Assembly (NCBI GenBank): GCA_016190245.1
Contig: JACPQY010000011.1
Location: 89,740-153,739, forward strand
Direction: 5' to 3'
Length of the DNA: 64,000 nt
DNA from: Nitrospirota bacterium
GTDB taxonomy: Bacteria > JACPQY01
The translations under genes were made by a program, and so were the position numbers. Shown one piece after another: positions 20,162 through 63,708 of this stretch. Positions within the stretch are counted from its first letter, which is position 1; each line of letters starts with the position of its first letter. The notes below the pieces were generated by a model that made no database searches, was not told the DNA's origin, and saw nothing but the letters and a program-made list of their open reading frames with translations.

Positions 20162-21640
20162 TCAATTCCGATGAGCCTCATCCGCCCGGAAGTGCGAACC
20201 GCACGTGCGATCACGCGCAAGGGCTGCGTGCATGATCGAAAGAGCAGCGCGCCCGCAGAGTTCCAGCTCGCGTCGCGTTGCTCGCGATACCCGCGCTGCG
20301 CTGGACCCGGCCGAGAGCGCCTCAAGCCACGCGCGCACACGATGCACGCCCACATCCAGACCGCTCCTCGTCCGGACGAGTCCCGCTGCCGAGCCGACGA
20401 CTTGTTGGAGCTCCGCGACAGCGCCGCGGGTGCTGCCCTCATGGGGGTGATGTTCGTGCCAGTCGTTCAATCGGGGGGGGAGCGGGGCTCGCGTTCCCGC
20501 TCTCCTCGCGTGGCGCGCCGCGCTCTCTCCCGCTCGCTTCCCGAACACGAGACAGGCCGGGATCATCGTGCCGCCGAGCCGATCCACGGCCTGAATGCCC
20601 CCGGCCGCCTCTCCCGCGGCGTAGAGGCCATCGATCCCGGTCCGTCCCCATTCGTCCGTCTCGATGCCGCCGTTGAAGGCGTGAACGGCATGAAAGATCT
20701 CGACCGACTCGTTCCGTCCGTGATTGAGATGAACCGTCGCCACGGGCAAGCTTGCCACCGCCACGTCGAGGTAGCCGGAGGCGTCCCGCATGCTGAACGG
20801 GAAATGGCGCGCGCGATCGGAGAAGAGGCGGTCCAAGTCGTGGCCCGGTGGAATCCACCGATCGAGCGCAGCCTGCAGCGCCGGATCGAGAGTCGCCTCA
20901 CCACGCGCGATCAGATCCACGGGGAAAAAGACCGGCCGTCGCCTGCCTCGCGTCGCGAGGATCCATTGGGCAAACTCCAAATGCTTCAACCTCGCGCCGG
21001 CTTCTTCCGCCATCGCGTGCCCGACGCCCCTGCAGCGGGGATCCGCAAGCGTCCTCGCGTAGAGGCCGGCCGCTCCGCCCGTGGCGAGGACCACCGAGCC
21101 CGCCTGAACCGCCTCCATCTCGCCGCGGGCGCTGGATCCCACCACCCCGACGCACTGCCCATCGTGCATCCACAAGCCCAGAGCGGTCCAGCGGTTGTGC
21201 ACAGGCAACGCACGCGCGAGGGCGCGAAACACCGGGCGGAACTCCTCCACGCAAACCGCCTGCGACAACCTGCCGAAGCAGCCCCGCAGGCGCACGGGCT
21301 CTCCGGCGTGCGTGCGCAATCGGGCGCCCCACCCGATCAGTTCTTCGAGCCGAGGCCACGCCTCTGCCACAAGCACGTCCGCTCGGGCGGCGTCCGTCTC
21401 GGGCCCACCCACTCCGAGAATCTCCTCCAGCAAAGCCTCAGCGCATCGAGGGGGATCAGCCGGGAGCACGGCCTGATAGCCCCAAGCCCGATTGAGGAAG
21501 TAGAAGCTCGATCCCGTGTAGCCCGCATGACCGCTGTCCACGACCAGCACCTCCGCCCCCTCATCGCGCGCGGCCACGGCGGCTCTCAACCCGGCGGCCC
21601 CGCCACCCACAACGACCACGTCCGTTCGAACCCGTTCCAT
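20162..21640 (-). CDS. FAD-dependent flavoprotein of the fumarate reductase/L-aspartate oxidase family
   Basis: This 492-residue protein has an N-terminal dinucleotide motif VVVVGGGAAGLRAAVAA and the FAD segments VLATGGAAGLYA and DGLYAAGEAAGGI, followed by RLGGTMIPACLVFGKRAG. The capping domain lacks the usual substrate motif QFHPT: the corresponding segment reads HLEFAQWILATRG, so it is probably not a standard succinate/fumarate or aspartate enzyme. The helical C-terminal domain is present and ends ARDRTCGSHFRADEAHRN, recalling the RGAHYR ending of the family. The ATG at 21640 has AGAAGGA upstream. No iron-sulphur or membrane subunit is adjacent. A role in oxidising a sugar-pathway intermediate is only a guess from the neighbourhood. 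Confidence 0.85.
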   Translation of the reverse strand: MERVRTDVVVVGGGAAGLRAAVAARDEGAEVLVVDSGHAGYTGSSFYFLNRAWGYQAVLPADPPRCAEALLEEILGVGGPETDAARADVLVAEAWPRLEELIGWGARLRTHAGEPVRLRGCFGRLSQAVCVEEFRPVFRALARALPVHNRWTALGLWMHDGQCVGVVGSSARGEMEAVQAGSVVLATGGAAGLYARTLADPRCRGVGHAMAEEAGARLKHLEFAQWILATRGRRRPVFFPVDLIARGEATLDPALQAALDRWIPPGHDLDRLFSDRARHFPFSMRDASGYLDVAVASLPVATVHLNHGRNESVEIFHAVHAFNGGIETDEWGRTGIDGLYAAGEAAGGIQAVDRLGGTMIPACLVFGKRAGESAARHARRAGTRAPLPPRLNDWHEHHPHEGSTRGAVAELQQVVGSAAGLVRTRSGLDVGVHRVRAWLEALSAGSSAARVSRATRRELELCGRAALSIMHAALARDRTCGSHFRADEAHRN

Positions 21641-21759
21641 CGCGTGCAGTCCTTCTCACATGATCATTCGGCAGCCGAACGATTCCCCTAAAGCCAGGGT
21701 GGCTGGAGGCATCTAGAGGCGAACGAAACCTGCCGAATAGCTCAGGGGGTTTCATCTTT

Positions 21760-21788
21760 GACACACTCCATAGGTTGTGGAACTCTAG
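21760..21788 (+). promoter_or_regulatory. Possible promoter of the plus-strand neuB-type gene
   Basis: TTGACA (21760-21765) is followed at 17 bases by AACTCT, a poor -10 box. The spacer contains ACTCCATAGGTTGTGG, resembling the dyad sequence found in other promoters of the locus. The leader would be about 80 bases. Confidence 0.35.
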
Positions 21789-21874
21789 TGGTTGGTACAA
21801 GAGCTTGTAGGGCGTTGATGCGCTTCCTGTCGTTGCGCGAGTCTCATCCACCGGGATAGGCCCCCAGCCGTACA

Positions 21875-22951
21875 ATGGAATCGCCGATCGGCCGAGTCAC
21901 GATCAAGATCGCCAACCGACTCATAGGCGACGGCGAACCCTGTTTCGTCATGGCCGAGGCCGGCAGCAACCACAACGGGAACTTCGAGCAGGCTCTCAGG
22001 TTAATCGATGCCGCCGTGGAGGCCGGGGCCGATGCGGTGAAGTTCCAGAATTTCAAGGCGGCGAGGCTCTACCCCAGAAACGCGGGCCGCTCCGACTATC
22101 TGAAACTCGAAAAAAGCATTTACGACATCATTCATGAGATGGAGATGCCGGAGAGCTGGGTTCCTCGCTTGGCCGAGTACTGCCGGGCGAGAGGGATTCT
22201 GTTTCTGTCTTCCGCTTTCGACGAAGCCTCGGTGGATCTCATCGAACCGTTCGTGCCGGCGTTCAAGATCGCGTCCTATGAAATGACCCACTACCCACTG
22301 ATCGAGCACATCGTGCGCAAGGGAAAGCCGATGATCCTCTCCACCGGTTGCGCGGATCTGGTGGAAGTCGGCGATGTCGTTGACTTCATCCGTGGGCTAG
22401 GGCGAACGGATCTCATCTTGCTCCAATGCACGGCCAAGTACCCCGCGCCTGTCGAGACGCTCAATGTGCGCGCCTTGCCGGCCATCCGCGACGCAACGGG
22501 TTGCCTGGTGGGACTCTCCGACCACTCGCGCGACCCGGTGACGGGGCCGGCCGCGGCGGTGGCGCTGGGGGCGTGTGTCGTTGAAAAGCACTTCACGCTC
22601 AGCAATCGCCTGCCGGGACCGGACCACGGGTTCGCCCTCACTCCCGAGGACCTGAAACGGATGGTTCGCGCGATCCGCGACACCGAGGCCGCCCTCGGGA
22701 CGGGCGAAAAAATCCATAGCGCGGTCGAGGACGAGCTTCGACTTTTCGCCCGGCGCAGCGTCTTTGCCGTGCGGCCCGTCGCGCGCGGCGAGGCCTTTAC
22801 GCGCGAGAACATCGCGGTGCTGCGAAACGGCAAGAACCGGGCCGGTCTACCGCCCTCGGAATATCCGCGCCTGCTGGGCCGAGTGGCCGCCTGCCCCCTG
22901 GCCGAGGGGGAACCGGTATCGCGGCGGGCCGTCGTCAAGGGGAGACAATAG
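21875..22951 (+). CDS. neuB: NeuB-type nonulosonic acid synthase with SAF domain
   Basis: This 358-residue enzyme of the N-acetylneuraminate/legionaminate/pseudaminate synthase family condenses phosphoenolpyruvate with a six-carbon amino sugar to make a nine-carbon acid. It has the TIM barrel with FVMAEAGSNHNGNFEQA, DAVKFQNFKA, ILSTGCADL, LSDHSRDP and the metal-binding VVEKHFTLSN. The C-terminal antifreeze-like SAF domain is at about 290-355 (RRSVFAVRPVARGEAFTREN). The length is full. It is the only such gene on the plus strand, separated from the rest by a hairpin terminator, and its product type cannot be settled from sequence. A second NeuB lies at 31429. Confidence 0.93.
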   Translation: MESPIGRVTIKIANRLIGDGEPCFVMAEAGSNHNGNFEQALRLIDAAVEAGADAVKFQNFKAARLYPRNAGRSDYLKLEKSIYDIIHEMEMPESWVPRLAEYCRARGILFLSSAFDEASVDLIEPFVPAFKIASYEMTHYPLIEHIVRKGKPMILSTGCADLVEVGDVVDFIRGLGRTDLILLQCTAKYPAPVETLNVRALPAIRDATGCLVGLSDHSRDPVTGPAAAVALGACVVEKHFTLSNRLPGPDHGFALTPEDLKRMVRAIRDTEAALGTGEKIHSAVEDELRLFARRSVFAVRPVARGEAFTRENIAVLRNGKNRAGLPPSEYPRLLGRVAACPLAEGEPVSRRAVVKGRQ

Positions 22952-22962
22952 GGGCCAACGGA

Positions 22963-22982
22963 CGGCCACACGCGCGTGGCCG
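22963..22982. terminator. Hairpin between convergent neuB and DUF115 genes
   Basis: A perfect 7-bp GC stem CGGCCAC (22963-22969) / GTGGCCG (22976-22982) with a 6-base loop lies in the 42-base gap between two converging genes. It is likely a bidirectional terminator, without a U-tract. Confidence 0.5.
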
Positions 22983-22993
22983 CCGTGTAGCCT

Positions 22994-24892
22994 TCACCGG
23001 CCTACTCTGCCTCTCGCTTCCTCAGCTAGCGTTCGCCCCGCCCCGCGGAGCTCGGCCGGGAGCCAGACACAGGTTTGCACGAGGATGTCCATGAAACCCC
23101 GCAGCTTCTCGGACTGGATTTCCGAGGAGACCTGTGACGCCGAGCAGAATCTCGATGTTTCCCGGACGTGCTTCAGATGAGCCCGGCCCGCCACTGCCCG
23201 GTCTATGACAGGGTTGGATCGGAAGAAGCGTCCCAGATCGTGGAGCGTCCGACCTACCCGCAGATCCGAGGCATTGCGGCCGCCAATCCGCAAGCCTGCG
23301 CTCAGGCCCGCGCGCATCAACTCGATCTTGCCCCGCCCTGCTTCGACAGAGGACGCCGCTTCTTCAAGCCAGCATGAAAGCCCCAAGGCGGTAGGGGGTC
23401 CCACCTGGGGCGACCTCGGACCCCGCCGCCAGTGCTTCGCCGGCCTCCCCTGTAGGAAACGGAGGCTCTCCCTAAGCTCGATGGTCTCGAAGCCTCGGAT
23501 GAGCGCCCCACCCCCTGATCCGTTGAAGAGACGCAGGGACCGACTATTCGCCCGCCCGAACCTTTCGAGCCAACGCAGGCTCATGCAGAGTTGGGGGGTG
23601 CTGACCACTTCACCGCCCCTGAGCCCCCGCGCCCGCCCCAGAGGGGGATTTCGGCCCTCGAAGATCGAAGGATCCACCGGCCAGCTTACGCGGCAGCCTC
23701 TCGCGTGCGAATGTGTCCGGCTGGGGGCGTGGTCCTGACCGACCAGGACAAAGGTTTTGCAGCCCATGAGCTGTGCCAGGGATACCGCCGCGCAGGTCAC
23801 CGACGCCCCGTTCTGCAACGCCCCTGCCGACTGCCCGTGACTCTCCAACACCGCGGCGAGGGGACTGCGAACGGAGAGGTAGACGAGCTTCTCACCGTGC
23901 CGCACGCCGAAGACCCGAGGACTGACATGGAGAGCCGATACGACCGATGTGCGCCTCGGAATGGGCAAGCCTTCGTAGAAGAAAGAGACATCAATCTGGC
24001 CCTCGTCACTCAGGACAAGATCCGGCCGCACTCCTTGTTCCAGAAGGGGCTTCAGAGCCGCGTCCGCCGCGATGACGAGGGCGCGCCTCGCCGCGGTGCG
24101 GAGGGCCGAATACGAGAGGTCGAGAGAGGGGCCGGCACCGACAATGAGGCACCCCCCCCCCGTATGGCAACCCCGCAGGAGCGAGGCGGGGCCGAGTCGG
24201 GCGAGCTGCGTTGCATTCGAAAGCTCTTGGGAGACCAGCCTCCGCACGACATGAAAGGACGCCCAGAATTGGCCGAGGTCATAGACCTCCTGCATGAAAG
24301 CCTGCAGTTCCCAGCGACGGACGGTCGCATGGTAGGCCATGGGTAGAATCGGAATCCGCACTCCGCCGCGGCTGCGGGACACGTGTGCGGCCATGAAGCC
24401 GGTGATCTCCGAGAGGTCCGAGGTCAGGACCAGCCTTCCGCCGAGCAGCGCATTCGAAAGATCAAGGCGACCCAACAGGATGCGCAGGAGTCTCAGCTCC
24501 GGCTCATAGACGAACACGGGGCGACGGCTTTCACCAAGAATCTCCCGGAGTCCCTCTCCCAGAGCCGTCCCGTACAGAACCACACCTTCATAGGGCGCGC
24601 ATTTCAATCGACCAAGATCCGCTTCCACCTCCGCGGTCGGCCCCCGTGGGCTGTGCAGCGGGACGCCATCGAGTTCCCCCGTCCAAGCGCCATCCGGTCG
24701 CAGAAAAACGCGGACCCCCTTTGTGGACGCGGTGGCCACCGAGGCCGCCAAGCGGGGGTGCGAGACTCTCAGCGCGGAGAGGTTCTTCCGGAGCCGCTCG
24801 TCGGAGTCGAGCAGTGCCGGGAATCGCCGTACGCCTGCATCCGCCGTTCCCCTCCCGCTGAAGGGGCTGGACGCGCGCCCCCCCCGGCTCAT
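22994..24892 (-). CDS. DUF115/Maf-like protein, putative protein glycosyltransferase for nonulosonic acids
   Basis: About 632 residues contain the DUF115 (MptE-like) Rossmann core in the middle: CLIVGAGPSLDLSYSAL, LVIAADAALKPLLEQGVRPD and SDEGQIDVSFFYEG. CAAVSLAQLMGCKTFVLVGQ follows. Flanking N- and C-terminal helical regions give the layout of motility-associated factors (Maf), which transfer pseudaminic or legionaminic acid to flagellin. ATG 24892 lies 40 bases after the aminotransferase stop; the frame is open upstream into that gene. As last gene of a long operon with NeuB, CMP-sugar synthetases and aminotransferases, a glycosyl-transfer role is the best guess. No flagellar gene is in the window, so the acceptor may be another surface protein. 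Confidence 0.75.
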   Translation of the reverse strand: MSRGGRASSPFSGRGTADAGVRRFPALLDSDERLRKNLSALRVSHPRLAASVATASTKGVRVFLRPDGAWTGELDGVPLHSPRGPTAEVEADLGRLKCAPYEGVVLYGTALGEGLREILGESRRPVFVYEPELRLLRILLGRLDLSNALLGGRLVLTSDLSEITGFMAAHVSRSRGGVRIPILPMAYHATVRRWELQAFMQEVYDLGQFWASFHVVRRLVSQELSNATQLARLGPASLLRGCHTGGGCLIVGAGPSLDLSYSALRTAARRALVIAADAALKPLLEQGVRPDLVLSDEGQIDVSFFYEGLPIPRRTSVVSALHVSPRVFGVRHGEKLVYLSVRSPLAAVLESHGQSAGALQNGASVTCAAVSLAQLMGCKTFVLVGQDHAPSRTHSHARGCRVSWPVDPSIFEGRNPPLGRARGLRGGEVVSTPQLCMSLRWLERFGRANSRSLRLFNGSGGGALIRGFETIELRESLRFLQGRPAKHWRRGPRSPQVGPPTALGLSCWLEEAASSVEAGRGKIELMRAGLSAGLRIGGRNASDLRVGRTLHDLGRFFRSNPVIDRAVAGRAHLKHVRETSRFCSASQVSSEIQSEKLRGFMDILVQTCVWLPAELRGAGRTLAEEARGRVGR

Positions 24893-24932
24893 CCAGGTCG
24901 TGCGGCGGCCTCGCCGCAGGCAGGGAAAGGCT

Positions 24933-26306
24933 TCATCTTTCCCCGTCGATCTCGGAGATGGCCTCCTCGTACACCTGCAAGCCTTCGAGCAGGGCATCAT
25001 CCGGCATGTTCAGCGGCGGGCCCAACTTCAGAGTCCCCCGACCCGTCCGGATGCTGAACACCCCTTTCTCAAGAGCCCTCTCGACAACGCGATCCACAAA
25101 GGGCACATCCAGTTCCTTTCCCGATTTCTGGGTGAAGTAGACCGCCCACAGCATGCCTTTTCCCATGAAGCGGCCGATGCGCTTCGGGAAGCGCTCCTTC
25201 CAACGGGCAAGCACCTCCTCGATGATCTTTCCCTTCCGGGCCGACTCCGCGACCAAGTTCTCACGTTCGAAAACCTCCAGGTTGGCCAGACCCGCCGCAC
25301 ACGCGATCGGGTGCCCGCCGTGGGTGCTCGTGTAGGCGGGGTCCAGGTCGATCAGGTCCCCTCGGCCCAGGACGAAAGAAAGCGGCACACTGGACGAAGT
25401 TCCTTTGCCGCAGATCACGAGGTCGGGCTCAACCCCATAGTGCTCAAAGCAGAACAACCTGCCTGTGCGACCGAATCCCGCCTGCACCTCGTCAAAAATC
25501 AGGAGGGCACCGTGGTCCCGACTGAAGCGGCGCATTTCCTGGATGTAGGCCTCCGGATAGAATACCGCTCCCCACCCTTGGAAAGACTCCACCACGAACG
25601 CAGCGGCGCGCCTCGCATCATGTCCCTTCTTCAGGAGGCGGGCGACATCACGCCTGAAGAGCTCTGCTCCACTCGTCTGAGCAGCCCCCCTCAGCCACGG
25701 ATAGGGGAATGGCATGTGAACCATGTGGGGATCGTGATGACCGATCCATGCCTTCGCGTCGTGCTGACCGCCGATCATCTGGGCACCCATGGTCTTGCCG
25801 TGGAAGTTCCCCACGGATCCGATGAGGAGCTTGCGAACCGGCTTCCGCGTGCGGCCATAGAGACGCGCGAGCTTGACGGCCCGCTCCGTCGCCTCGGTGC
25901 CGGTGGAAAAGAGCGAAGCCTTGTCCAAGTAGGGCGGTGTGAACTCGACGAGTTTCTTGAGATAGCGCGCGCGAATCTCGGTAGGGTAGGAATAGCTGTG
26001 TAGAAGCTGTTCCGACTGCTCCTGGATGGCCTTGACGATGTGGGGATGGCCGTGCCCCGCGTTGGTCACGAAGATGGTGGAGGAAAAATCGATCCAAGCG
26101 TTGCCCCACGCGTCAAAGACCTGGTACCCCTTCGCGCGATCCCAGACAACCGGCAACTGATCCCGCACGTTCGAAGACTCGTAGCGCGCGATCTGCTCGA
26201 TGATGGGAAGAGATTCCGGCACGGGGATGGCCGTCACGATCCGCCGGTGGCGTGTGTCAACCCGCTCCACCCTCCTCGGCGCCAGGTTGAACGAATAGGC
26301 GGTCAT
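24933..26306 (-). CDS. Class III PLP-dependent aminotransferase
   Basis: The ATG at 26306 overlaps the sulfotransferase stop (ATGA) and gives 457 residues. Class III features are present: GNAWIDFSSTIFVTNAGHGH, the phosphate-binding FSTGTEATERAVKLAR, LIFDEVQAGFGRTGRLF and the PLP lysine in VICGKGTSSSVPLSFV. The region after the lysine (TSTHGGHPIACAAGLANLEV) is also typical. Such enzymes move amino groups between omega-amino acids or sugars and 2-oxo acids. In this operon it probably aminates or epimerises a precursor of the decorated sugar or a small amine substituent. It lies between the sulfotransferase and DUF115 genes. Confidence 0.9.
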   Translation of the reverse strand: MTAYSFNLAPRRVERVDTRHRRIVTAIPVPESLPIIEQIARYESSNVRDQLPVVWDRAKGYQVFDAWGNAWIDFSSTIFVTNAGHGHPHIVKAIQEQSEQLLHSYSYPTEIRARYLKKLVEFTPPYLDKASLFSTGTEATERAVKLARLYGRTRKPVRKLLIGSVGNFHGKTMGAQMIGGQHDAKAWIGHHDPHMVHMPFPYPWLRGAAQTSGAELFRRDVARLLKKGHDARRAAAFVVESFQGWGAVFYPEAYIQEMRRFSRDHGALLIFDEVQAGFGRTGRLFCFEHYGVEPDLVICGKGTSSSVPLSFVLGRGDLIDLDPAYTSTHGGHPIACAAGLANLEVFERENLVAESARKGKIIEEVLARWKERFPKRIGRFMGKGMLWAVYFTQKSGKELDVPFVDRVVERALEKGVFSIRTGRGTLKLGPPLNMPDDALLEGLQVYEEAISEIDGER

Positions 26307-27253
26307 GCCCTGCGGCCTCCTCCACCACCAGCATAGCCGAGGTCCTCGCAAAACTCATTGAATCGGTCACGCACGGCCGGAGCCAAGTCGAAGACGTGGT
26401 CGTGGGTCACTTGGTGATACTCTTCCAGTCCGCGCATGTGCGAGCGGGATAATCCGCTGAGTTCGAGCCCGGCCCAATCTGCCAAGCGGCCCGCGACGCC
26501 TTCCACATCCCTGACGAGTTCCTCGTACTTCACTCGGCGAACACGAACGGGCTCGTTCTGAGCCCCTTCCAGCCCTGCTTGAACCATCCGGCACCAGTTG
26601 TAGGCCGCACGCGTTGCCGGGTTCCACCTCGACCAATCGGATCGGTACCGCTCCTCCACGAAGAAGGGGCAGGCATCCGGGGATTCGGAGCCCCTCCTGA
26701 ACCAGGTGGTCACCCATTCCCGATAGTACGTGTCGGAATACCAAGCCCTTCGCAAACCGGACGCGACAACGTCTCGGCCGTCGCGGATCAGGTGAATCAC
26801 CTTCAGGCGAGGGAACCATTGGACCATTCGTTCCGGGATGAGATGAAGGTCGGGGTGCTTGAAAACGAAGGACCAAGAACGGCTCGATCGGAGCTGGTGG
26901 TACTCACGTCTTCGGTCGGGGAACCCCAACCTTTCGATCAGCTTGTCCCAAGACAGGTAGTTGAAACTGAAGCTGTAGCCCGGTCTGAGATTCACGCGGC
27001 GTCCAAGGAGCCGAGGATAGAACTCAACCTCGTGCAAGCAAACATCGAGGAGGAAGCGCGCGCCTGCATCCGTCATGTCGCCGGTGGCCAGCACACCGGC
27101 TGCGGCCGGCAGGCAGGGCGGCTCGTAGGCGAAGACCGTGTTCTCACAGCTACCAAGTATGCGCCCTAAGATGCCCGTCCCGGATCGAGCGGCTCCGGTG
27201 ATGAGGAGCATCGGAAGATCCAGTTCCGGGTTGCCGGATGGGAGATTGTGCAT
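26303..27253 (-). CDS. Sulfotransferase domain protein
   Basis: This 316-residue protein has the two PAPS-binding signatures. The 5'-phosphosulfate loop is LLITGAARSGTGILGRIL at the N-terminus, and the 3'-phosphate loop is VIHLIRDGRDVVASGLRRAW near residue 150. A late acidic/aromatic region (VKYEELVRDVEGVAGRLADW) completes the family pattern. It should transfer sulfate from PAPS to a hydroxyl or amine, most likely on the surface glycan or its carrier. No PAPS-synthesis genes are nearby. The stop overlaps the aminotransferase start by 4 bases. ATG 27253 is used; ATG 27211 is an alternative that still retains the loop. Confidence 0.9.
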   Translation of the reverse strand: MHNLPSGNPELDLPMLLITGAARSGTGILGRILGSCENTVFAYEPPCLPAAAGVLATGDMTDAGARFLLDVCLHEVEFYPRLLGRRVNLRPGYSFSFNYLSWDKLIERLGFPDRRREYHQLRSSRSWSFVFKHPDLHLIPERMVQWFPRLKVIHLIRDGRDVVASGLRRAWYSDTYYREWVTTWFRRGSESPDACPFFVEERYRSDWSRWNPATRAAYNWCRMVQAGLEGAQNEPVRVRRVKYEELVRDVEGVAGRLADWAGLELSGLSRSHMRGLEEYHQVTHDHVFDLAPAVRDRFNEFCEDLGYAGGGGGRRA

Positions 27254-27295: not shown

Positions 27296-28024
27296 TCATG
27301 AGGCTCCAGACACGTCGGATCTCGGTTCGGATGTGATCTCCTCGGCTACGCGCACAACTTCGGAGGCCTCCACCCCAACCACGTCCCCCACGCGGCGTCC
27401 GATCTCCTGGAGGAGGGCCAGATCTCGCGGATAGTCCAAGTCCAGTTTGACGCGGGTACGCAGAGGCTCCGCCACTTCGATCCGGGTCACCTTGAACTTC
27501 TGCATGTTCTTATAGAAGTATGGAAAGACGTGTTCACGATCGTGAGGTTCGGTGGCCTCCTCGTGGATCCGCTTGAGACATTCGAACCTGATGAACTCTC
27601 CGGCAAAGTCATTCTCGCGGTCCGGAAATGTCGGGTTCTTCCAGCCCACAAAGTCCATGCGTTCGCTCAGACCGTACTGGACCAGCCGGTCCATCTCCGT
27701 CCAGGCGAGAAAGACATTGTCCCCCGTCACCCGGACTACGTACGGGGACGGGTGCTCCAGCGAAGCTCGGTAGTAGCGGTCCACCAGATCGTTCTCCGAC
27801 CCACGGAAGACGGCAAAACCGAGACGAGCGGCGTGTTCGGCCAGGATCGTATCCTGAGGGAGGGCGGAGGTGGCGAGGACGATCCTGTCGATCTCCCGTG
27901 CCCGAGCCAGGCGTCGCAGGACCACTTCAACGACGGGGACACCGCCGATGGGCTCGAAGCTCTTGCCCGGCCTCCGCCGAGAGCCCATCCGCGCCTGGAC
28001 AATCGCCACGACACGCTCGCTCAT
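27296..28024 (-). CDS. SpsF-type cytidylyltransferase
   Basis: This 242-residue GT-A-fold nucleotidyltransferase starts VVAIVQARMGSRRRPGKSFE, the SpsF/CMP-KDO-synthetase-like nucleotide loop. VVRVTGDNVFLAWTEMDRLV and FVGWKNPTFPDRENDFAGEF follow. VKLDLDYPRDLALLQEI near the C-terminus supplies the metal-binding acidic residues. The start is ATG 28024, because GGGGAGG lies 5 bases upstream. It should activate a sugar or nonulosonic acid with CTP. It lies between the GSA-type aminotransferase and sulfotransferase genes. SpsF-type enzymes accompany SpsE (NeuB family) and aminotransferases in spore-coat polysaccharide loci, which matches the neighbours here. Confidence 0.9.
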   Translation of the reverse strand: MSERVVAIVQARMGSRRRPGKSFEPIGGVPVVEVVLRRLARAREIDRIVLATSALPQDTILAEHAARLGFAVFRGSENDLVDRYYRASLEHPSPYVVRVTGDNVFLAWTEMDRLVQYGLSERMDFVGWKNPTFPDRENDFAGEFIRFECLKRIHEEATEPHDREHVFPYFYKNMQKFKVTRIEVAEPLRTRVKLDLDYPRDLALLQEIGRRVGDVVGVEASEVVRVAEEITSEPRSDVSGAS

Positions 28025-33211: not shown

Positions 33212-33226
33212 GCTTGCCCTCCCCAT

Positions 33227-56704: not shown

Positions 56705-57415
56705 TTACGATGCTGCCCAAAGCTCGGGCCATCGCGCCGATAGCTCGGCTAGGTCTCGGACCTTGTGGGATCCGTCCACCGGCTCGAAGGGATCGAGGCG
56801 GTCCGGACGAACGCGTGCTACGAAGCGAACTTGAGCCTGAATCGCGCTCTCGAGATCGCCCTGGGAATCGCCGACGTAGAGAACTGAATCGCTCGGACAT
56901 CGGCTCTCGCGAGCGACGAGACTCAGCAGCTCCGCCTTCCCTCTCGGCGCTCCGTAGGTCCCTCGGAAGAAGCGGCTGAGCCCCCGGGCTGCCACGATCT
57001 CCCGCAGCTCTTCTTCCGGCGTTCCGGAAACAATGAAGAGTGGGCAGCGGCCGGAAAAGGCCTCCAGGAACGCCAGTGCACCCTCTACCATGGGACACGT
57101 CAACATCTCCGCCACCACCAGCCTGCTGAATTCGCGCCCCAAAGCTTGGCTCTCGGAATCGCTCAGAGGTCGTCTCAAAATATCCCTGTAAACGAGCTCG
57201 AATTTCTTGTACCGGGAGGTTCCGCCCAGTCTGATGTGCAGAGAAACAATCTGGTCCAGGAACTCCGGGTCGGCTTCAAAGAGTTTCCTGAACGCCCAGG
57301 TCTTGATATCCACGCTCTCAAGGATCACTCCATCGCAGTCCAGCACGACGACCTTCGGCGGCTCCGATCGAGTACCGGCTTCCCTCAAGCGACCGCGGAG
57401 GCTTGATGAGACCAT
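56705..57415 (-). CDS. HAD-superfamily phosphatase
   Basis: This 236-residue protein has motif I VVLDCDGVILESVDIKTWAF, motif II LFIVSGTPEEELREIVAARG, motif III lysine near FRGTYGAPRGKAELLSLVAR, and motif IV VLYVGDSQGDLESAIQAQVR. The cap is helical, as in phosphoglycolate phosphatase and beta-phosphoglucomutase relatives. ATG 57415 is used, because GAGGTG lies 9 bases upstream; the frame reaches 57427. It overlaps the dehydrogenase gene by 31 bases. A dephosphorylation step before or after cytidylyl transfer is likely. Confidence 0.9.
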   Translation of the reverse strand: MVSSSLRGRLREAGTRSEPPKVVVLDCDGVILESVDIKTWAFRKLFEADPEFLDQIVSLHIRLGGTSRYKKFELVYRDILRRPLSDSESQALGREFSRLVVAEMLTCPMVEGALAFLEAFSGRCPLFIVSGTPEEELREIVAARGLSRFFRGTYGAPRGKAELLSLVARESRCPSDSVLYVGDSQGDLESAIQAQVRFVARVRPDRLDPFEPVDGSHKVRDLAELSARWPELWAAS

Positions 57416-58455
57416 GATTCGTTCCACCTCACACCCAGCAATTGACCTGCCTCCAGAACGGATTTCCAGACGGCGTCCGAGACAGGAATACCCTCGCGCA
57501 GCCGCCGTGCCTTCGTTCGCTCCTCGAGCTCCCCAGGCAGCAAAACCTCACCCCGTCCGTCCGCGGGCGCTGAGCTCTTCACGCATTCGCAGAGCACGCG
57601 AACCTGGGCCGCGAATCCGGCCGGATTCTGGAACGCGTTGGGATTCAGGACGGCCATGAATAGCCCGTTTCCGATCTCGTAGTTCTCCCCCTGCACAGCA
57701 AGGGAGCCGGCCCCCGTGAGCAATCCGGCGAGGATCTCCACCAGGAGACAGAGGGCATAACCCTTGTGCCCTCCGAACGGCAGGAGCATTCCACCATCGT
57801 AATAGTCCTCCGGCCGGCGGCTGGGCCGGCCGAGGCGATCGAGAATCCACCCCTCAGGGAGCATTTCACCCTGCTCCCGGGCGAGACGGATCCTCCCCGA
57901 AGCCACGACCGCCGTTGAGAAGTCCATCACCAGCGGCTTCGCCCCTTCGACAGGGACGGCAGCCGCGAAGGGATTCGTGCCGAAGACCGGACGTACCCCA
58001 CCGAAAGGCGCCACTCTTGCCTGTGCGCCCCCCCCGTTCACGAGAGCGAGGGCAAGACAACCGCGAGCCGCCGCCAGAGCCGGGTAGGTGCCCGCGCAAC
58101 CGACGTGCCCGCAATGGAAAACTCCAGCGACCGCCACCTCCACGTTCGACGCCTTCTCGATCAGCCTGTCCGTCACCCATCGGGCCACGACCTGGCCAAA
58201 ACCCCAGCCCCCGTCCACCAGGATCGCGGCGGGGCCCTCGCGCACGAGGGTCGGCACGGCGGACGGTTTCAACTCGCCCGTTCCAATCTGCCGCAGGTAT
58301 TCCGTGACGCGGATGATCCCGTGGGAGTCGTGGCCGGCTAGGTTCGCCTCCACCAGCGATTCCGCCACGATTCGCGCGGTGCTTTCCGCCGCGCCAGAGC
58401 GACAAAAGATCGCCGCCACGAACTCACGCAGGCCCTCGGTATCCCGGACGAGCAT
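57385..58455 (-). CDS. Ldh_2/YbiC-type malate/lactate dehydrogenase family oxidoreductase
   Basis: The ATG at 58455, with AAGGGAG 7 bases upstream, gives 356 residues. It has the features of the NAD(P)-dependent 2-hydroxyacid dehydrogenase family (Ldh_2): AGHDSHGIIRVTEYLRQIGT, GWGFGQVVARWVTDRLIE, VGCAGTYPALAAARGCLALA, ARVAPFGGVRPVFGTNPFAA and LLPFGGHKGYALCLLVEILA. Relatives include malate, sulfolactate, ureidoglycolate and 2,3-diketogulonate dehydrogenases. It reduces a 2-oxo acid, which suggests the pathway passes through a small hydroxy acid or an ulosonic acid side chain. It lies between the HAD phosphatase and an epimerase gene. Confidence 0.9.
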   Translation of the reverse strand: MLVRDTEGLREFVAAIFCRSGAAESTARIVAESLVEANLAGHDSHGIIRVTEYLRQIGTGELKPSAVPTLVREGPAAILVDGGWGFGQVVARWVTDRLIEKASNVEVAVAGVFHCGHVGCAGTYPALAAARGCLALALVNGGGAQARVAPFGGVRPVFGTNPFAAAVPVEGAKPLVMDFSTAVVASGRIRLAREQGEMLPEGWILDRLGRPSRRPEDYYDGGMLLPFGGHKGYALCLLVEILAGLLTGAGSLAVQGENYEIGNGLFMAVLNPNAFQNPAGFAAQVRVLCECVKSSAPADGRGEVLLPGELEERTKARRLREGIPVSDAVWKSVLEAGQLLGVRWNESWSHQASAVA

Positions 58456-58479: not shown

Positions 58480-59409
58480 CTAGCCTGCCTGGCTCCCAAT
58501 GACCGAGGCCTCGATCGGGGGGGCCGTTTCTTCGTAGATCTCCTCCAGACATTCCAGCAATCCCTGGCCGAAGTCGACGCACGGGTTGTTCACCAGCTTC
58601 CTGGCGACCTTCGGCTTGAACGAATACGGCGTGATCCTGTAGTGGCCGGGGAGCAATTCTTCAGCCCGCTCGGCTCCCACCCTCCGCATCTCAATCCTGA
58701 CGTCCTTGCCCACTATGTCGCGGATCATGCGGAGGAGATCCCTGAACCGCATCGGGGATGGACCCGTCAGGATGACGCGCTGATTGCGAAACTCCTCCCG
58801 CAGAACATGCACACTCGAGAGGGCCGCGTCCCTCACGTGAATGTATTCCCTCGTCTCCCCACCGGTACCGTACGCCACCACCCGACGCTCCTGGAGCGCC
58901 TGGCGCAGATACCTTTGCACACTGTTGTACTCGTCCGCTCTCGGCCCGTAGACCGTGCCGTAGCGAAGAATCACATACTCCAGCCCGTACCGGCGTTCGT
59001 ACTCCTCGATATACAGCTCGGCGGCCTGCTTGCTGCATCGATAGAAGGATCCCTCTTCACTGTAGACATAGATGCTGCTGGCGTAGATGAATCTCTTGAC
59101 GCCGGCGAGTCGTGAAGCCTCGAGGGCGAGCACGGTACCCAGCACATTCTGCTCGACCGTCTCCACAGGGTGATCCCGCCCAATCTCCAGATGGGGAATT
59201 CCCGCCATTTGATAGACAACGTGGTGCCCTCGAACCACTTCTCTCAGTTGCTCTGCGCAAAGCAGGTCGCCCTGGACGAAGACCTGGGCAGGGCTGAGGT
59301 GTCGCGTCCGCCTGCGGTCAAAAATGGTCACCTCATGGTCACCTTCCGAAAGCGCATCGGCGAGGTGGCTTCCAATGAATCCGGACCCTCCAAGGACGAG
59401 GATCTTCAC
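58480..59409 (-). CDS. NAD-dependent sugar epimerase/dehydratase
   Basis: The GTG at 59409 has a strong GGAGGA 5-7 bases upstream, and the protein is 309 residues. It starts KILVLGGSGFIGSHLADALS. It has HVVYQMAGIPHLEIGRDHPV, RFIYASSIYVYSEEGSFY, a catalytic segment YRCSKQAAELYIEEYERRYG and YVILRYGTVYGPRADEYNSV. The usual YxxxK reads FYRCSKQA, so the proton-donor tyrosine and lysine are in place. The most 5' gene of the second glycan run, it is preceded by a long leader and a candidate promoter at 59887-59916. The preceding open frame to 59442 lacks a start with support. Confidence 0.9.
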   Translation of the reverse strand: MKILVLGGSGFIGSHLADALSEGDHEVTIFDRRRTRHLSPAQVFVQGDLLCAEQLREVVRGHHVVYQMAGIPHLEIGRDHPVETVEQNVLGTVLALEASRLAGVKRFIYASSIYVYSEEGSFYRCSKQAAELYIEEYERRYGLEYVILRYGTVYGPRADEYNSVQRYLRQALQERRVVAYGTGGETREYIHVRDAALSSVHVLREEFRNQRVILTGPSPMRFRDLLRMIRDIVGKDVRIEMRRVGAERAEELLPGHYRITPYSFKPKVARKLVNNPCVDFGQGLLECLEEIYEETAPPIEASVIGSQAG

Positions 59410-60457
59410 CTTTCCTCCCCCCCTCGGCGGTTCGCGCGACAACCGGATGAGGAAAATGTTCGAGCGCGGGCGACCTCCATGTCCAATGCCTCCACTCCGA
59501 TCCTCTATCCCGTCAGCCGATATTCATCCATACAAAACCTGTGGAACGGTGTTTCTCTCAAACCCTTCCTCCCCTAGCGGACGGCGGGGCCTCGCAACCC
59601 CACCACCATGCAGGGAAGGACCGAACGCCACGACCGCGAGGCGTACCCCTGCAAACCATCCGGGGAGCCCGTTTCGCTGCAAATGCGCAGAACTCGCCCC
59701 TACCGAGTGGGGCAAGAGATGGTGCCTACCACACCCGCCGGAGTTCAAGACCCCTCTACTCACGCACTACCTTCTTCCCTTCCCGACATGGGGTCGTCAA
59801 ACAAGTCTTCGTCCATCGAGCACCCCACGTCAACAGTAAGCCTCGACCCCAGATCAGAAAGATTACCATATCTAGTAGATGTGTTCATGCTACCCCTATA
59901 TGTGGCCCCCTGTCAAGCTGGGGCGGTCATTAAGTCACTTAACAATTTGACCTTCGGCAGTTACCTATGGGTCTTTAGCCGGAACTCGATGGTCATGGCG
60001 GGAGACGCGCCCGGTGTGCCGACCGGGCTGCACCGGCCACGAGCTTCTCTGGTCAGCCGGAAAGGGGCTAAAGATCGTTCGTGCACTTGCCGAACAATGG
60101 TATGAGCATCGCTGGCTTCAAGCGGCGATGTCTCGATGAGCGCCAGACACGGGGGAACCGTGGGACAACGTCATTGATGAATCCGGCAGGCTTGAACCCG
60201 AGCTTCTCCTGGATGTGGAGAATCTGACCGTGAGAAAGACGCTGCAGCCTCGACGATTCGAACGCTGATGAGTCTAGGAGTGCGTCAGTCACCACAGACA
60301 CGGGGGGTCACGAAAGGCGGTCAGTCTCGCGCCCGCAGTGCCCCGCCTGATTGGGATGATGCCCCGACCCACTACAGCCGCCAATGGGAAGGAATGGCAC
60401 ACCTCCCACTGCCGGGGGCGTGACTGCGGGCTCTTTGTGGAAAGCACAGGCCGCGGC
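59410..60457. other. Gene-poor intergenic stretch of about 1 kb
   Basis: I found no recognisable protein or RNA gene. Open frames such as 60068-60301 (minus) and 59608-60105 (plus) show no family features. Visible signals are the promoter at 59887-59916 and a perfect odd palindrome TTAAGTCACTTAA at 59930-59942. It separates the leftward glycan run from the plus-strand reductase and may hold decayed genes or regulatory DNA. Confidence 0.5.
59887..59916 (-). promoter_or_regulatory. Candidate promoter of the 58480-39784 run
   Basis: On the minus strand TTGACA (59916-59911), 18 bases and TAGCAT (59892-59887). Its CCACATATAGGGG spacer is a weaker match to the shared dyad. The leader to the GTG at 59409 would be about 470 bases. 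Confidence 0.45.
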
Positions 60458-60486
60458 TTGACTTGGCCAAGCTCTAGTGGTAAGAA
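60458..60486 (+). promoter_or_regulatory. Candidate promoter of the RmlD-like gene
   Basis: TTGACT (60458-60463), a 17-base spacer and TAAGAA (60481-60486) lie 75 bases before the ATG at 60562. CTACA-AGA-TGTAG (60495-60507), a dyad related to those in the minus-strand promoters, sits at the predicted start of transcription. Confidence 0.5.
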
Positions 60487-60561
60487 TCGCAAAGCTACAA
60501 GATGTAGTGGTTGCTACCTCCGATTGCTTGTGTGGCAAGAGGATTGGTGAGGCGTGGTGCC

Positions 60562-61476
60562 ATGAAGGTACTAATCACGGGCGGCAGAAGTCTCCTTGGA
60601 AAGGCGCTCGTTCAGGCCGCCCCCGGGGAGTATGGTCTTCATGCCACCTACTTCCAGCACCCCCCAAGCGATGCCGCGGACGGTGTTCGCTATCACCAAC
60701 TTGACCTTCGAGATGCAGCCCAGATCGCGTCCCTTGCGAGCCAAGCTCGGCCCGATATCTTGGTCCACGTCGCATCCTTGGGAGATGTGGACTATTGCGA
60801 GCGAAACCCGCAGGAGGCTTGGGATGTCAATGTCAGGGGGACTGCCGAGCTGTGGAACGCCTGTGCGCGGCTCGGCTGCCGGATGACCTACGTCTCGAGC
60901 AACGCCGTTTTCGATGGGAACTCAGCGCCGTACACCGAGAAGGATCCGTGTCATCCCACGAGCCACTACGGCCGGACCAAGCGAGTCGCCGAGGAGCTGG
61001 TGCAGAGCCTCGACCCGGCCACGTTGGTCATACGCCCGAATCTCTTGTTCGGCTGGAATCACCCCGATCATCGCCCGAATCCCGTCACCTCGATGCTCGG
61101 GAAGCTCGCAACGGGCGACAGGGTGGAGGCCGTGGACGACATCTTCAACAACCCCGTTTCGGCGGAGGACTGCGCGGTCGCGATCTGGCGGGCGATCCGT
61201 CAGCGGTGTTCCGGAACCATCCATGTGGGGGGGCGGGACCGGTTGAGCCGCTATGCCTTTCTGAGCTTGGCCGCCCGCGTGTTCGAATTCGGAGGCGACG
61301 TCGTGGCACCGGTTTCCAGTTCACGGTTCCCCTCCCTCACACCCCGTCCGCGGGATACCACCTATCGAACGGAGCGAATGGAATCCGAGCTCGGGCTTTC
61401 ACCCGCACTGGCCGGCGAGGGACTGTCTCGAATGAAGGCCTTGGCGCCTCACCCTGCCCGCTCAGCCGCCGCCTGA
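60562..61476 (+). CDS. RmlD-like NAD(P)-dependent sugar reductase (extended SDR)
   Basis: This 304-residue protein begins KVLITGGRSLLGKALVQAA, then RPDILVHVASLGDVDYCERN, MTYVSSNAVFDGNSAPYTEK and catalytic SHYGRTKRVAEELVQ. FNNPVSAEDCAVAIWRAIRQ and GTIHVGGRDRLSRYAFLSLA follow. This matches dTDP-4-dehydrorhamnose reductase-type proteins, though RmlA-C genes are absent nearby, so it may reduce another 4-keto sugar. ATG 60562 is chosen over an upstream in-frame start at 60511. It converges on the glycosyltransferase unit and ends before a hairpin terminator. Confidence 0.9.
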   Translation: MKVLITGGRSLLGKALVQAAPGEYGLHATYFQHPPSDAADGVRYHQLDLRDAAQIASLASQARPDILVHVASLGDVDYCERNPQEAWDVNVRGTAELWNACARLGCRMTYVSSNAVFDGNSAPYTEKDPCHPTSHYGRTKRVAEELVQSLDPATLVIRPNLLFGWNHPDHRPNPVTSMLGKLATGDRVEAVDDIFNNPVSAEDCAVAIWRAIRQRCSGTIHVGGRDRLSRYAFLSLAARVFEFGGDVVAPVSSSRFPSLTPRPRDTTYRTERMESELGLSPALAGEGLSRMKALAPHPARSAAA

Positions 61477-61490
61477 TCCCAGATGAAGGG

Positions 61491-61512
61491 GCCCCGCCGA
61501 ACCGAGCGGGGC
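61491..61512. terminator. Bidirectional hairpin between convergent genes
   Basis: GCCCCGC (61491-61497) pairs with GCGGGGC (61506-61512) across 8 bases. It sits between the RmlD-like stop and the glycosyltransferase stop. GC-rich stem, no U-tract. Confidence 0.5.
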
Positions 61513-62468
61513 TAACAGCCTGTCCGCGAGAGCAGTTCTTGGACTCGGTGCGCGTAGGTATGCTCGGCGTGGGCCCGCCGGCAGGCCTTGGCTGCGATGG
61601 CGCGACGCTCCTTGGGATGCTTCAGGTAGTAGGCAAGCTTTCGTTCAAGGTCCCGCGGACCGCGATAGGTAACGATCTCCTCTCCGAGGGCAAAGAACTC
61701 GCGAAGGGCCGACTTGTGATCGGTCAGCTGAAACGCAGCGCTGCCCGCCAACTCGAACACACGTTGGTTGGGCGCCGTGATGGATTGAGGATGGTGAATA
61801 TTCAAGACCATCGCGGACTGCGCGTAGAGCCTGCGGACTTGGGAGGGGCGTAGGGTCGGCCGCTCATCAATCGACGCCCAGACCAGTTCGGGGTGTCGCC
61901 GCCATCCCGGACCGACCAGCCTCAACCGGAACGACGACAGGCCGGACAGGAGTCGGACGCGATTCGGATACGGTGTCCCAACGAAGGTGACATCCCATCG
62001 TGGCCGAACGGAGTTGGTAACGGGGCGGTAGGAATCCGGATCAAACCCCAAGGGCAGGTAGCTCACACGCCCTTTGGACACTCTCCGGAGCCAGGGCACA
62101 TAGGCCCGATCAAAAATGAAGACATGATCCAGCGTGCGACCGGCGCTCCAGTAGTCCGTCCAAGGTCTCGGATCATCGAACCACCATGAAGCCATGGTGA
62201 TTCCCATCCCTCGGAGTGCGGCGACGCTGCCCGCGGAAAGGAACTCGCCCTTCAACAGCAAGACCAGTTCAGGCCGCCATCTCCTCGCCGCGCCGAGAAG
62301 CCGGTCGTTCGACTCCGACCTCCATCGGGCGGGCGCAAGCCCCGAGTCGTGCTGCACGCGGTAGTAGAACGTGTGGACCTTGCAGCCCGCATCCCTCAGG
62401 GCACGTCGAACGAAATCCGTTGTTCGGCCGTACCATCGGGCACCCGCCAGGAGGACGTTCGGAGGCAT
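61512..62468 (-). CDS. CgeB-like glycosyltransferase family protein
   Basis: The ATG at 62468, 19 bases after the upstream GT gene, gives 318 residues. It begins NVLLAGARWYGRTTDFVRRA, then LVLLLKGEFLSAGSVAALRG, ASWWFDDPRPWTDYWSAGRT and VFIFDRAYVPWLRRVSKGRV. The C-terminal part has MVLNIHHPQSITAPNQRVFE, LAGSAAFQLTDHKSALREFF and IVTYRGPRDLERKLAYYLKH. This is the CgeB/DUF3880-type GT-B layout with the donor-binding glutamate in RVFELAG. It acts with the neighbouring GT4 on a surface glycan. Confidence 0.85.
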   Translation of the reverse strand: MPPNVLLAGARWYGRTTDFVRRALRDAGCKVHTFYYRVQHDSGLAPARWRSESNDRLLGAARRWRPELVLLLKGEFLSAGSVAALRGMGITMASWWFDDPRPWTDYWSAGRTLDHVFIFDRAYVPWLRRVSKGRVSYLPLGFDPDSYRPVTNSVRPRWDVTFVGTPYPNRVRLLSGLSSFRLRLVGPGWRRHPELVWASIDERPTLRPSQVRRLYAQSAMVLNIHHPQSITAPNQRVFELAGSAAFQLTDHKSALREFFALGEEIVTYRGPRDLERKLAYYLKHPKERRAIAAKACRRAHAEHTYAHRVQELLSRTGC

Positions 62469-62487
62469 CTCCCTTGAAACTGAACCC

Positions 62488-63708
62488 TCAGCCCTCGCGG
62501 GCGCGCACCTGCGGCGCTCGCGCCTCCGCCAGCAGGTCCAAGTAGACTTGAGCCAAGAGGGCCCGGCTCCGAACCCGGTCCGCCCGAGCCTCCACCACCG
62601 CTCGATTGGCGCCTGACGCCCGCCGCCGGAAGGCCTCGTCCCGCAGCACGCGCAGGAGACCTGCGGAGAAGCCCTCGACGTCTCCGGCCGCGCACAGGAC
62701 TCCGTTCGCTCCCGGTACGATCCACTCGCGCATGGCGGGCAGATCAGAGGCAACCACGGGCAGGCCACAGGCCATGGCCTCGAGCACGGCATTCGATGAA
62801 CCATCATCCACGGGGCAACTGACCATCACATCGCAGGCGGCCATGACCCGGGCCAGGTCGGCGCGTTCGACCTCGCCAAGAAACACGACCTTCCGGCCCA
62901 CCCCAAGATCCTCCGCCAGCTCCCGCATCCCCCGCATCAGAGGCCCGTCGCCGGCGACAACGGCCCGGATGGCCGGCTCCTCGCGATGGGCATGGGCGAA
63001 CGCACGGACGAACGTTTCCGGCGCGTAGATCTCCTCCAGCTTCCGAGCGAAAAGGACGATGCGCGAGTCCTCCCATCCCAAGTCACGGCGGACGCGGCCC
63101 CTCGATTCCCGATCAGACCGAAACAGCGAAAGGTCCACCCCGAGCGAAAAGCAATGCAGCCGATGGGCGGGCACGCCATACCTGCCGCTCAGAAGAGAAC
63201 GGGTATGCTCGTTGTCGCAGGTCACAGCGTCCGCTCGCGCCAGCGTGAATGCGGCCACCCGGCGCATCCACCGGCTCCGGCTCGCACGGAATCGCACGTC
63301 CGAACCGAAACAGAACAAATGAAACGGATGATGCCCCGAGAGGGCGGCCCAGAAACCTGTGGTGGGGATCCAATCGGCGTGCAAAAGGTCCGGCCTGAAC
63401 TCCCTCAGGAGTCGCTTCACGCGCGCCACGTAGGGCACCTTGAGAACCATCCGGGCGATGGCCCGGTGCGGGCCACCCCCTCGAATCGGCCGGTACCCAA
63501 GGTTTATGGACCGCACATCACTGGGGCAGTACTTCCCCATTCCATCCACGAGATGCACATACAGGATGTCGAACCTGCAGTCCCTCAGGGTCTGCAGGAA
63601 GAAACCATCGTGGTTCCCCCCAGGGGTGAGGTAGAAGAGCCGAGCCCCCCCCGCATCAACCGACGCCACCCCCGCTGTTGGTGGGGATGACGGTGCAAGA
63701 CCCAACAT
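62488..63708 (-). CDS. Glycosyltransferase family 4
   Basis: This 406-residue GT-B enzyme has the N-terminal acceptor domain with RPDLLHADWIPTTGFWAALS and CFGSDVRFR, and the C-terminal donor domain. That domain shows HCFSLGVDLSLFRSD, IVLFARKLEEIYAPETFVRA, VVAGDGPLMRGMRELAEDLG, KVVFLGEVERADLARVMAAC and DGSSNAVLEAMACGLPVVAS, the last containing the EX7E-type retaining GT4 signature. ATG 63708 is the only good start and lies about 9 bases after the predicted transcription start. It is the first gene of a two-GT unit. Confidence 0.93.
   Translation of the reverse strand: MLGLAPSSPPTAGVASVDAGGARLFYLTPGGNHDGFFLQTLRDCRFDILYVHLVDGMGKYCPSDVRSINLGYRPIRGGGPHRAIARMVLKVPYVARVKRLLREFRPDLLHADWIPTTGFWAALSGHHPFHLFCFGSDVRFRASRSRWMRRVAAFTLARADAVTCDNEHTRSLLSGRYGVPAHRLHCFSLGVDLSLFRSDRESRGRVRRDLGWEDSRIVLFARKLEEIYAPETFVRAFAHAHREEPAIRAVVAGDGPLMRGMRELAEDLGVGRKVVFLGEVERADLARVMAACDVMVSCPVDDGSSNAVLEAMACGLPVVASDLPAMREWIVPGANGVLCAAGDVEGFSAGLLRVLRDEAFRRRASGANRAVVEARADRVRSRALLAQVYLDLLAEARAPQVRAREG

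Follow-up and report, generated by a model that had tools for sequence, protein, structure and literature searches.

Bacteria usually make their acidic sugars along one of a few known routes. The prokaryotic pathway to ketodeoxynononic acid (KDN) comprises a KDN-9-phosphate synthase, a phosphatase and a CMP-KDN synthetase (CMP, cytidine monophosphate), and in the pathway to 8-amino-3-deoxy-D-manno-octulosonic acid (Kdo8N) a 3-deoxy-ulosonate is oxidised and then aminated by KdnA/KdnB before CMP activation. Maf genes are common beside flagellin genes, though this arrangement is not obligatory in the family. The cobalamin-dependent radical S-adenosylmethionine (SAM) methylase subfamily includes the non-methylating members AprD4 and BchE, and AprD4 acts on an aminoglycoside sugar. 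In Leptospira, a synthase carrying a phosphatase domain was proposed to follow an animal-like phosphorylated route (PMC3438082), and the Maf of Clostridium botulinum, CbMaf, is reported to accept several ulosonic acid donors (PMC11339370). Here, we describe a gene block of approximately 42 kb from a Nitrospirota bacterium (GenBank assembly GCA_016190245.1), which seems to direct the synthesis of at least two unusual acidic sugars, activated with CMP and destined for the cell surface or the flagella, and in which two recurring modules can be separated by comparison. Its radical enzymes, which accompany such sugar-activating genes in unrelated bacteria as well, probably modify the sugars in hitherto undescribed ways. 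The window analysed is the last 64 kb (positions 89,740 to 153,739) of the 153,739-base contig JACPQY010000011.1, so that the locus is truncated on its right by the contig end. Genes are named by their first position in the window.

The genome (3.29 Mb, 86 contigs) is 84.8% complete with a contamination of 0.84%. Its phylum is sampled by two genomes in our comparison set, the second being G001, of the same family; G000 denotes the source genome, C numbers contigs and L numbers loci in other genomes. Within the window, 28 minus-strand genes run from 59409 to 22994 with intergenic gaps of at most 389 bases, bordered on the left by the plus-strand synthase gene NeuB1 and on the right by a divergent RmlD gene and two glycosyltransferase genes. 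Profile scans with Pfam and NCBIfam assign to the locus two NeuB synthases and one KdsC-type phosphatase, and find a cytidylyltransferase domain in four genes, an aminotransferase domain in three and a radical SAM domain in five. A reading made earlier from the sequence alone (the sequence-only reading) had the inventory mostly right: Pfam recovers both NeuB genes (21875 with and 31429 without an SAF domain), the KdsC-like phosphatase 30896, and the five radical SAM genes plus a sixth at 17961, all with the CxxxCxxC motif, and the three aminotransferase domains are of class III in 24933 and 28061 and of the Aminotran_1_2 type in 54750. Of its five cytidylyltransferase-type domains, those in 27296, 38627, 45253 and 54750 match CTP_transf_3, but 37750 matches no profile. 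It had overlooked the Maf-type glycosyltransferase 22994, the sulfotransferase 26303, the TIGR04326-like protein 49889 and further glycosyltransferases. Five of the genome's 44 radical SAM matches lie inside 43.5 kb (0.58 expected; P = 3e-4), as do four of its six CTP_transf_3 matches (0.08 expected; P = 1.5e-6). Since both counts are far above expectation, this clustering is not due to chance. The locus is a mosaic of two modules, A and B, and further genes; the modules are in part known, and their combination is new.

Two recurring gene modules

Module A, a predicted operon widespread in many phyla, consists of a cytidylyltransferase, a HemL-like aminotransferase, a short-chain dehydrogenase (SDR), a KdsC-type phosphatase and NeuB2. 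All five genes lie on the minus strand of the window: the cytidylyltransferase (27296..28024; PF02348, 2.4e-24), the HemL-like aminotransferase, which resembles glutamate-1-semialdehyde aminomutase (28061..29521; PF00202, 8e-42; 62% identity in L031), the phosphatase (30896..31405; haloacid dehalogenase (HAD) families), the NeuB2 synthase of an SAF-less clade (31429..32373; PF03102, 7.3e-80) and the SDR (32411..33211; PF13561, 2.5e-48). The aminotransferase 28061 scores 422 bits against NCBIfam PRK06209 (cut-off 486), and the best NCBIfam model for 30896 is KDN-9-phosphatase, at 85 bits (cut-off 180). In the PDB, the solved SpsE (1vli) ranks among the entries that match NeuB2 most closely. An extended module also takes in a class III aminotransferase (24933..26306, minus strand; PF00202, 5.8e-80; 62% in L031, 43% in L032). 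Its homologues and those of a xylose-isomerase-like TIM barrel protein (33227..34144, minus strand; PF01261, 5.1e-21) stand side by side in module A-like loci of a Rhodospirillaceae member (L031) and of Arcobacter (L032).

Scanning one genome per species with 28061 yielded at least 571 confirmed relatives, and 80 loci were kept for gene-content counts. Homologues of the cytidylyltransferase and the SDR were present in 53 and 48 of these 80 loci, respectively, and 20 contained the complete five-gene set (Bacteroidota, Ignavibacteria, Chloroflexota and others). The usual order is cytidylyltransferase, two genes, HemL, SDR, KdsC, NeuB2. In the one locus scanned for them, the two intervening genes are transketolase halves, and none were found among the scanned window genes. 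The SAF domain is absent from all 36 NeuB genes or fragments with at least 49% identity to NeuB2 and present in 22 of 23 relatives below 40% identity. Further, the SAF-less clade includes seven KdsC-NeuB fusions (L041, L044, L050, L051, L052, L060, L071), each with KdsC at the N-terminus; hence, KdsC very probably acts on the NeuB2 product. A synthase paired with a dedicated phosphatase, as in a phosphorylated route, is thus found both in the window, where KdsC adjoins NeuB2, and in the fusions. This pairing points to an ulosonic acid route with a phosphorylated substrate, like those via KDN-9-phosphate or Neu5Ac-9-phosphate, and suggests that the product of NeuB2 is a phosphate. Module A is a very common NeuB operon with an SAF-less synthase, uncharacterised as far as the literature found shows, and the question it raises can be studied in cultured bacteria with the same genes, for example Mucilaginibacter or Hymenobacter, instead of in an uncultured lineage.

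Module B combines a cytidylyltransferase-aminotransferase fusion, a SPASM radical SAM protein, an epimerase, a HAD phosphatase and a 2-hydroxyacid dehydrogenase, and recurs without NeuB in unrelated genomes. On the minus strand of the window it is represented by the SPASM radical SAM gene (52812..53804; PF04055, 3.1e-24; PF13186, 3.1e-10), a cytidylyltransferase fused to a HisC/CobD-like pyridoxal phosphate (PLP) enzyme (54750..56651; PF02348, 5.5e-15; PF00155, 3.3e-41), a HAD phosphatase (56705..57427; PF00702, 5.5e-10; 38-45% in L146, L151 and L153), an Ldh_2-type 2-hydroxyacid dehydrogenase (57385..58455; PF02615, 2.2e-103) and an NAD-dependent epimerase (58480..59409; PF01370, 4.2e-43; 42-55% in L146 and L150-L154). 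An NAD-dependent epimerase/dehydratase gene (53801..54784, minus strand; PF01370, 1.3e-48) lies between the first two. In diverse genomes, the N-terminal, cytidylyltransferase domain of 54750 has separately encoded relatives (56-63% identity). Near them (L146-L154), a 52812-type SPASM radical SAM gene, a 58480-type epimerase, an SDR and a 2-hydroxyacid dehydrogenase recur, the HAD phosphatase less often; these loci have 2-Hacid_dh where the window has Ldh_2. No NeuB was detected in the six module B loci tested. In L146, a Wzx-like gene is located two genes away from the module B cytidylyltransferase. When plasmids were searched with 45253 or with 54750 in its full length, all matches were partial and distant. 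For a match in Ensifer, no annotation was available.

Radical SAM enzymes and their inheritance with cytidylyltransferases

Four of the island's radical SAM proteins, as well as 17961 outside it, combine a B12-binding with a radical SAM domain, and the fifth is the SPASM protein 52812; the CxxxCxxC motif is intact in all six. As the island proteins are at most 27% identical to each other, they do not stem from a recent duplication. The B12-binding members, all encoded on the minus strand, are 34276 (34276..36051; PF04055 and PF02310; motif CVARCTFC), 36126 (36126..37688; Pfam), whose nearest solved relative is AprD4, 42873 (42873..45113; Pfam and NCBIfam), whose nearest solved relatives are the C-methylases TokK and CysS, and 48201 (48201..49757; profile scan). 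The 36126 product is 42% identical to that of an L153 gene which overlaps a cytidylyltransferase gene.

The reverse search with 52812 returned six of the same module B loci as its six best foreign matches. In five of these six, the 52812-type and cytidylyltransferase genes overlap or are at most 18 bases apart, and 7.8 kb separate them in the sixth; as two of the six loci come from one genus, the independent count is five. In small samples, with stretches of unequal length and bins set by similarity rank, a cytidylyltransferase was present in the loci of 6/6 closest, 4/6 intermediate and 1/12 distant relatives of 52812 (10/12 versus 1/12, Fisher P = 6e-4), and in those of 4/5 closest relatives of 48201 compared to 1/20 others (Fisher P = 2e-3). 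The four 48201 relatives concerned are those on C16 and in G262, G001 and G049 (in the last, the cytidylyltransferase is 12 kb away), whereas the fifth, in G286, has no cytidylyltransferase in its locus; under a 10-kb limit the comparison is 3/5 versus 1/20 (P = 0.016). The suggestion of the sequence-only reading that radical chemistry takes part in these pathways is thereby supported indirectly, the loci of close relatives of 52812 and 48201 being richer in cytidylyltransferases than those of distant ones, and co-inheritance would likewise place the radical enzymes in CMP-sugar pathways.

Tentatively, we propose that 52812 and 48201 are founding members of new radical SAM families acting on CMP-activated or CMP-destined sugar acids, which might yield carbon-branched, C-methylated or deoxygenated acidic surface sugars in many uncultured and cultured bacteria. 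Among the top-ranked, mostly open-access literature, no paper was found that places radical SAM enzymes in the synthesis of nonulosonic acids or CMP-sugars; a radical SAM gene does occur in one Campylobacter capsule locus. While module A and Maf are of known kinds, the association of radical SAM enzymes with CMP-sugars is apparently undescribed; it is testable and poses a concrete enzymatic question, namely which sugar and which bond.

Radical SAM genes are also grouped elsewhere. Five lie within 6.3 kb in the source genome (G000:C24:3271-9616), and C72 holds four more matches in 3.4 kb or close by (4098-7533: 4098, 5503, 7000). A plasmid of Azospirillum oryzae KACC 14407 (NZ_CP054615.1, 211457-244307; L199) carries four, including a relative of 42873 (39% identity), next to nucleotide-sugar epimerases, a SIS isomerase, carbamoyltransferases and transketolase-like genes. 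Coming from a cultured organism, this locus is a possible tractable model.

Anchor, Maf-type gene and remaining genes

To the left, the locus adjoins an anchor (16957..22951) composed of a small gene, a regulator of polyhydroxybutyrate (PHB) accumulation (+), the B12 radical SAM gene 17961 (-), a FAD oxidoreductase gene (20162, -) and NeuB1 (21875..22951, +; NeuB, 9.7e-82; SAF, 3.6e-12). This order is kept in G001 (G001:C2:135282-141616) with identities of 40, 61, 68, 51 and 69%, in turn. The regulator gene (17492-17983) and 17961 (17961-19898) overlap tail to tail by 23 bases, and their homologues (61 and 68%) are likewise neighbours in G001. Past NeuB1, both genomes carry differing glycan gene sets; in G001, the part that bears genes for NeuB, cytidylyltransferases and radical SAM proteins is approximately 80 kb long. 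A fixed anchor followed by differing gene content is the behaviour that would be expected of hypervariable surface-glycan islands.

Directly beside NeuB1 lies 22994 (22994..24892, minus strand; PF01973, 8.6e-27), the sole PF01973 gene of this genome. It encodes a protein of about 630 amino acids with an MptE-like/Maf central domain, 28-29% identical to a G001 protein bearing PF01973 and Maf_flag10_N, and its match to the solved Maf structure 5mu5 is weak but colinear. The genome has six flagellin-domain matches, on contigs C5, C10, C30 and C56. Structure predictions for the Maf-type protein and for 29625 (mean pLDDT, i.e., predicted local distance difference test, of 38 and 48) were too poor for use.

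The remaining genes of the 28-gene run, again on the minus strand, include a sulfotransferase (26303..27253; PF13469, 5.8e-15) and a protein of a family without Pfam, NCBIfam or significant PDB match (29625..30779), a possible glycosyltransferase with homologues in the L146 and L031 glycan loci. The cytidylyltransferase 38627 (38627..39394; PF02348, 3e-22) is paired with 37750 (37750..38619), as it is in G001 (G001:C2:190077-191572). A fifth, degenerate cytidylyltransferase had been proposed for 37750, but it lacks Pfam and NCBIfam matches and its hhalign probability against cytidylyltransferases is 0.1%; it would represent a small family of its own that accompanies a cytidylyltransferase in both genomes. 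Further to the right follow a large putative glycan-assembly protein (39784..41793; weak match to TIGR04417 PFTS_polysacc, 3e-4), a fusion of CBS, cytidylyltransferase and methyltransferase domains (45253..47022; PF00571, PF02348, PF13489) and class I methyltransferases at 41866..42528 (PF08241, 1.8e-19), 47057..47953 (PF13489, 2.9e-24) and 51964..52815 (PF13649, 4.8e-16). The putative glycosyltransferase 49889 (49889..51919) resembles TIGR04326 surface carbohydrate proteins (173 bits, cut-off 250) and is 30% identical over 644 amino acids to an L147 protein. Beyond the run lie the RmlD-type reductase (60562..61476, +; PF04321, 1.8e-52), a glycosyltransferase (61512..62468, -; PF13524, 5.9e-38) and a group 1 glycosyltransferase (62488..63669, -; PF00534, 1.4e-30), the latter two with matches of 29 and 38% identity in the G001 island. 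The 1.15 kb between the divergent genes (59410..60561) contain no called gene and two promoter-like sites, and might serve to control the long operon. An Rfam search of the window found no cobalamin riboswitch or other RNA at the gathering threshold, including in this region.

The source genome also contains a smaller set of this type (G000:C16:7523-16969; L029). There, a third NeuB gene (297 amino acids, no SAF match) adjoins a cytidylyltransferase gene, accompanied by a 48201-type B12 radical SAM gene (40%), a 2-hydroxyacid dehydrogenase, a fusion of CBS and UDP-glucose dehydrogenase and a Wzt-like ATP-binding cassette (ABC) ATPase.

Proposed pathways, rival explanations and known systems

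From gene identities, module recurrence and co-inheritance, we infer substrates, reaction order and acceptor as follows. The reading we somewhat favour is that of a modular surface-glycan island, in which two or more distinct acidic sugars would be made in CMP-activated form and delivered to a surface acceptor, most simply to flagellin via the Maf-type transferase. In module A, the first product would most likely be a 3-deoxy-2-ulosonate phosphate, formed when NeuB2 condenses phosphoenolpyruvate with a phosphorylated aldose. This would then be dephosphorylated by the KdsC-type enzyme, after which the chain would be oxidised and aminated by the SDR and the HemL-like PLP enzyme (and 24933), and 27296 would add CMP. 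Module B would supply a second CMP-activated acid by a NeuB-free route via the 2-hydroxyacid dehydrogenase, epimerase, HAD phosphatase and cytidylyltransferase-aminotransferase fusion, with 52812 acting in the same pathway. With TokK/CysS and AprD4 as nearest solved relatives, C-methylation or deoxygenation of sugars is the most economical guess for the B12 radical SAM enzymes; the class I methyltransferases may add further methylation, and sulfation is perhaps also involved. That several CMP-activated acidic sugars are made, as the sequence-only reading had supposed, agrees with the finding that at least two modules were each recovered independently as sets of genes that recur across unrelated genomes. 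Its remark that the combination was not recognised is fair for the whole locus but not for module A, a widespread NeuB operon. Several points weigh against the island as we read it. NeuB1, 38627, 45253, 34276 and 42873 have no assigned partner. Flagellin as acceptor is deduced from a single gene, 22994, itself weakly matching the solved Maf, and the flagellin matches lie on other contigs rather than beside it. The association counts have the small samples, unequal stretches and rank-based bins given above, and co-inheritance is evidence of a shared pathway, not of the CMP-sugar itself being the substrate of a radical enzyme.

The acceptor is also where a second, possible reading enters, to which we give less than even weight: that of a locus for O-antigen, capsule or exopolysaccharide rather than flagellin glycosylation, with the genes for lipid-linked or ABC export situated beyond the contig end. 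This reading is compatible with modules A and B as proposed. The window does stop at the contig end, several glycosyltransferases are present, and export-type genes occur near related sets, i.e., Wzx-like in L146 and Wzt-like near the third NeuB on C16. However, the genome's only PF01973 gene stands beside NeuB1 and has a relative in the G001 island. The earlier statement that flippase and ABC exporter are missing holds for the scanned window genes, but not for the genome, which has the Wzt-like ATPase on C16 and one Wzx-like gene on C29. These canonical transport genes leave a lipid-linked or ABC route open, a further point against flagellin, while a cytoplasmic Maf-type flagellin route requires no flippase; the exporter genes not seen in the window may be explained by either. 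An ordinary legionaminic, pseudaminic or neuraminic acid cluster with accessory genes, its radical SAM genes serving unrelated substrates, appears unlikely, although two NeuB and four CTP_transf_3 domains are present and Leptospira clusters likewise hold several aminotransferases, nonulosonic acid (NulO) synthases and CMP synthetases, with one phosphatase-fused synthase, and yield di-N-acetylated NulOs and Neu5Ac (PMC3438082). No DegT aminotransferase, hydrolysing 2-epimerase (NeuC/LegG/PseG) or N-acetyltransferase was found among the scanned window genes, to which this search was confined; NeuB1 and NeuB2 both score under the NCBIfam NeuB_NnaB and PseI cut-offs, and the radical SAM genes are co-inherited with cytidylyltransferases. 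The established NeuB-KdsC-CMP synthetase route invoked by the sequence-only reading fits only in part, as the companion genes of legionaminic, pseudaminic or neuraminic acid synthesis are not among the scanned genes, and NeuB2 with KdsC points to the phosphorylated variant.

FrbH has the same cytidylyltransferase-PLP fusion architecture as 54750, which by analogy would suggest a CMP-phosphonate pathway. This is very improbable, as no PEP mutase scores above cut-off in the genome (best 26.4 bits versus 31.5), although the assembly is no more than 85% complete. We consider it just as improbable that pieces of several organisms were joined in one contig. The assembly has 86 contigs, and the G+C content is 0.65-0.69 across most of the left flank compared to 0.59-0.64 in the island, but other stretches of the same contig also reach 0.60-0.61 and contamination is low. 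Moreover, the left anchor crosses the junction as in G001, and Maf, 48201, 61512 and 62488 all have relatives within the diverged G001 island, which argues against a chimeric contig.

Returning to the modular island, one of its closest counterparts is the Leptospira interrogans cluster, a single locus that also holds several aminotransferase, NulO synthase and CMP synthetase genes (PMC3438082). It encodes a full legionaminic pathway, whereas DegT aminotransferase, 2-epimerase and acetyltransferase genes were not found among the scanned window genes; its fused phosphatase domain is C-terminal, whereas KdsC is separate here and N-terminal in the fused relatives; and the main text of the paper does not mention radical SAM genes. 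The Bacillus subtilis sps legionaminic pathway, compared here in outline, is likewise a non-canonical NulO route (PMC7439481). In Maf-dependent flagellin glycosylation, a Maf-type transferase also stands beside NeuB (PMC11339370), but here flagellin genes are not adjacent, and there are far more sugar genes as well as radical SAM genes. By gene types, module A resembles the KDN pathway in its NeuB-type synthase, KdsC-type phosphatase and cytidylyltransferase, to which it adds an SDR and a HemL-like aminotransferase. It shares the oxidise-then-aminate logic of the Kdo8N pathway, but with a class III/HemL-like aminotransferase and an SDR as oxidase, no DegT-type or iron-alcohol-dehydrogenase-type gene being detected. 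Finally, the known substrates of TokK/CysS and AprD4 are antibiotics or their precursors and not surface-glycan sugars, yet the B12 radical SAM enzymes of the island share with them both domain layout and sequence relationship.

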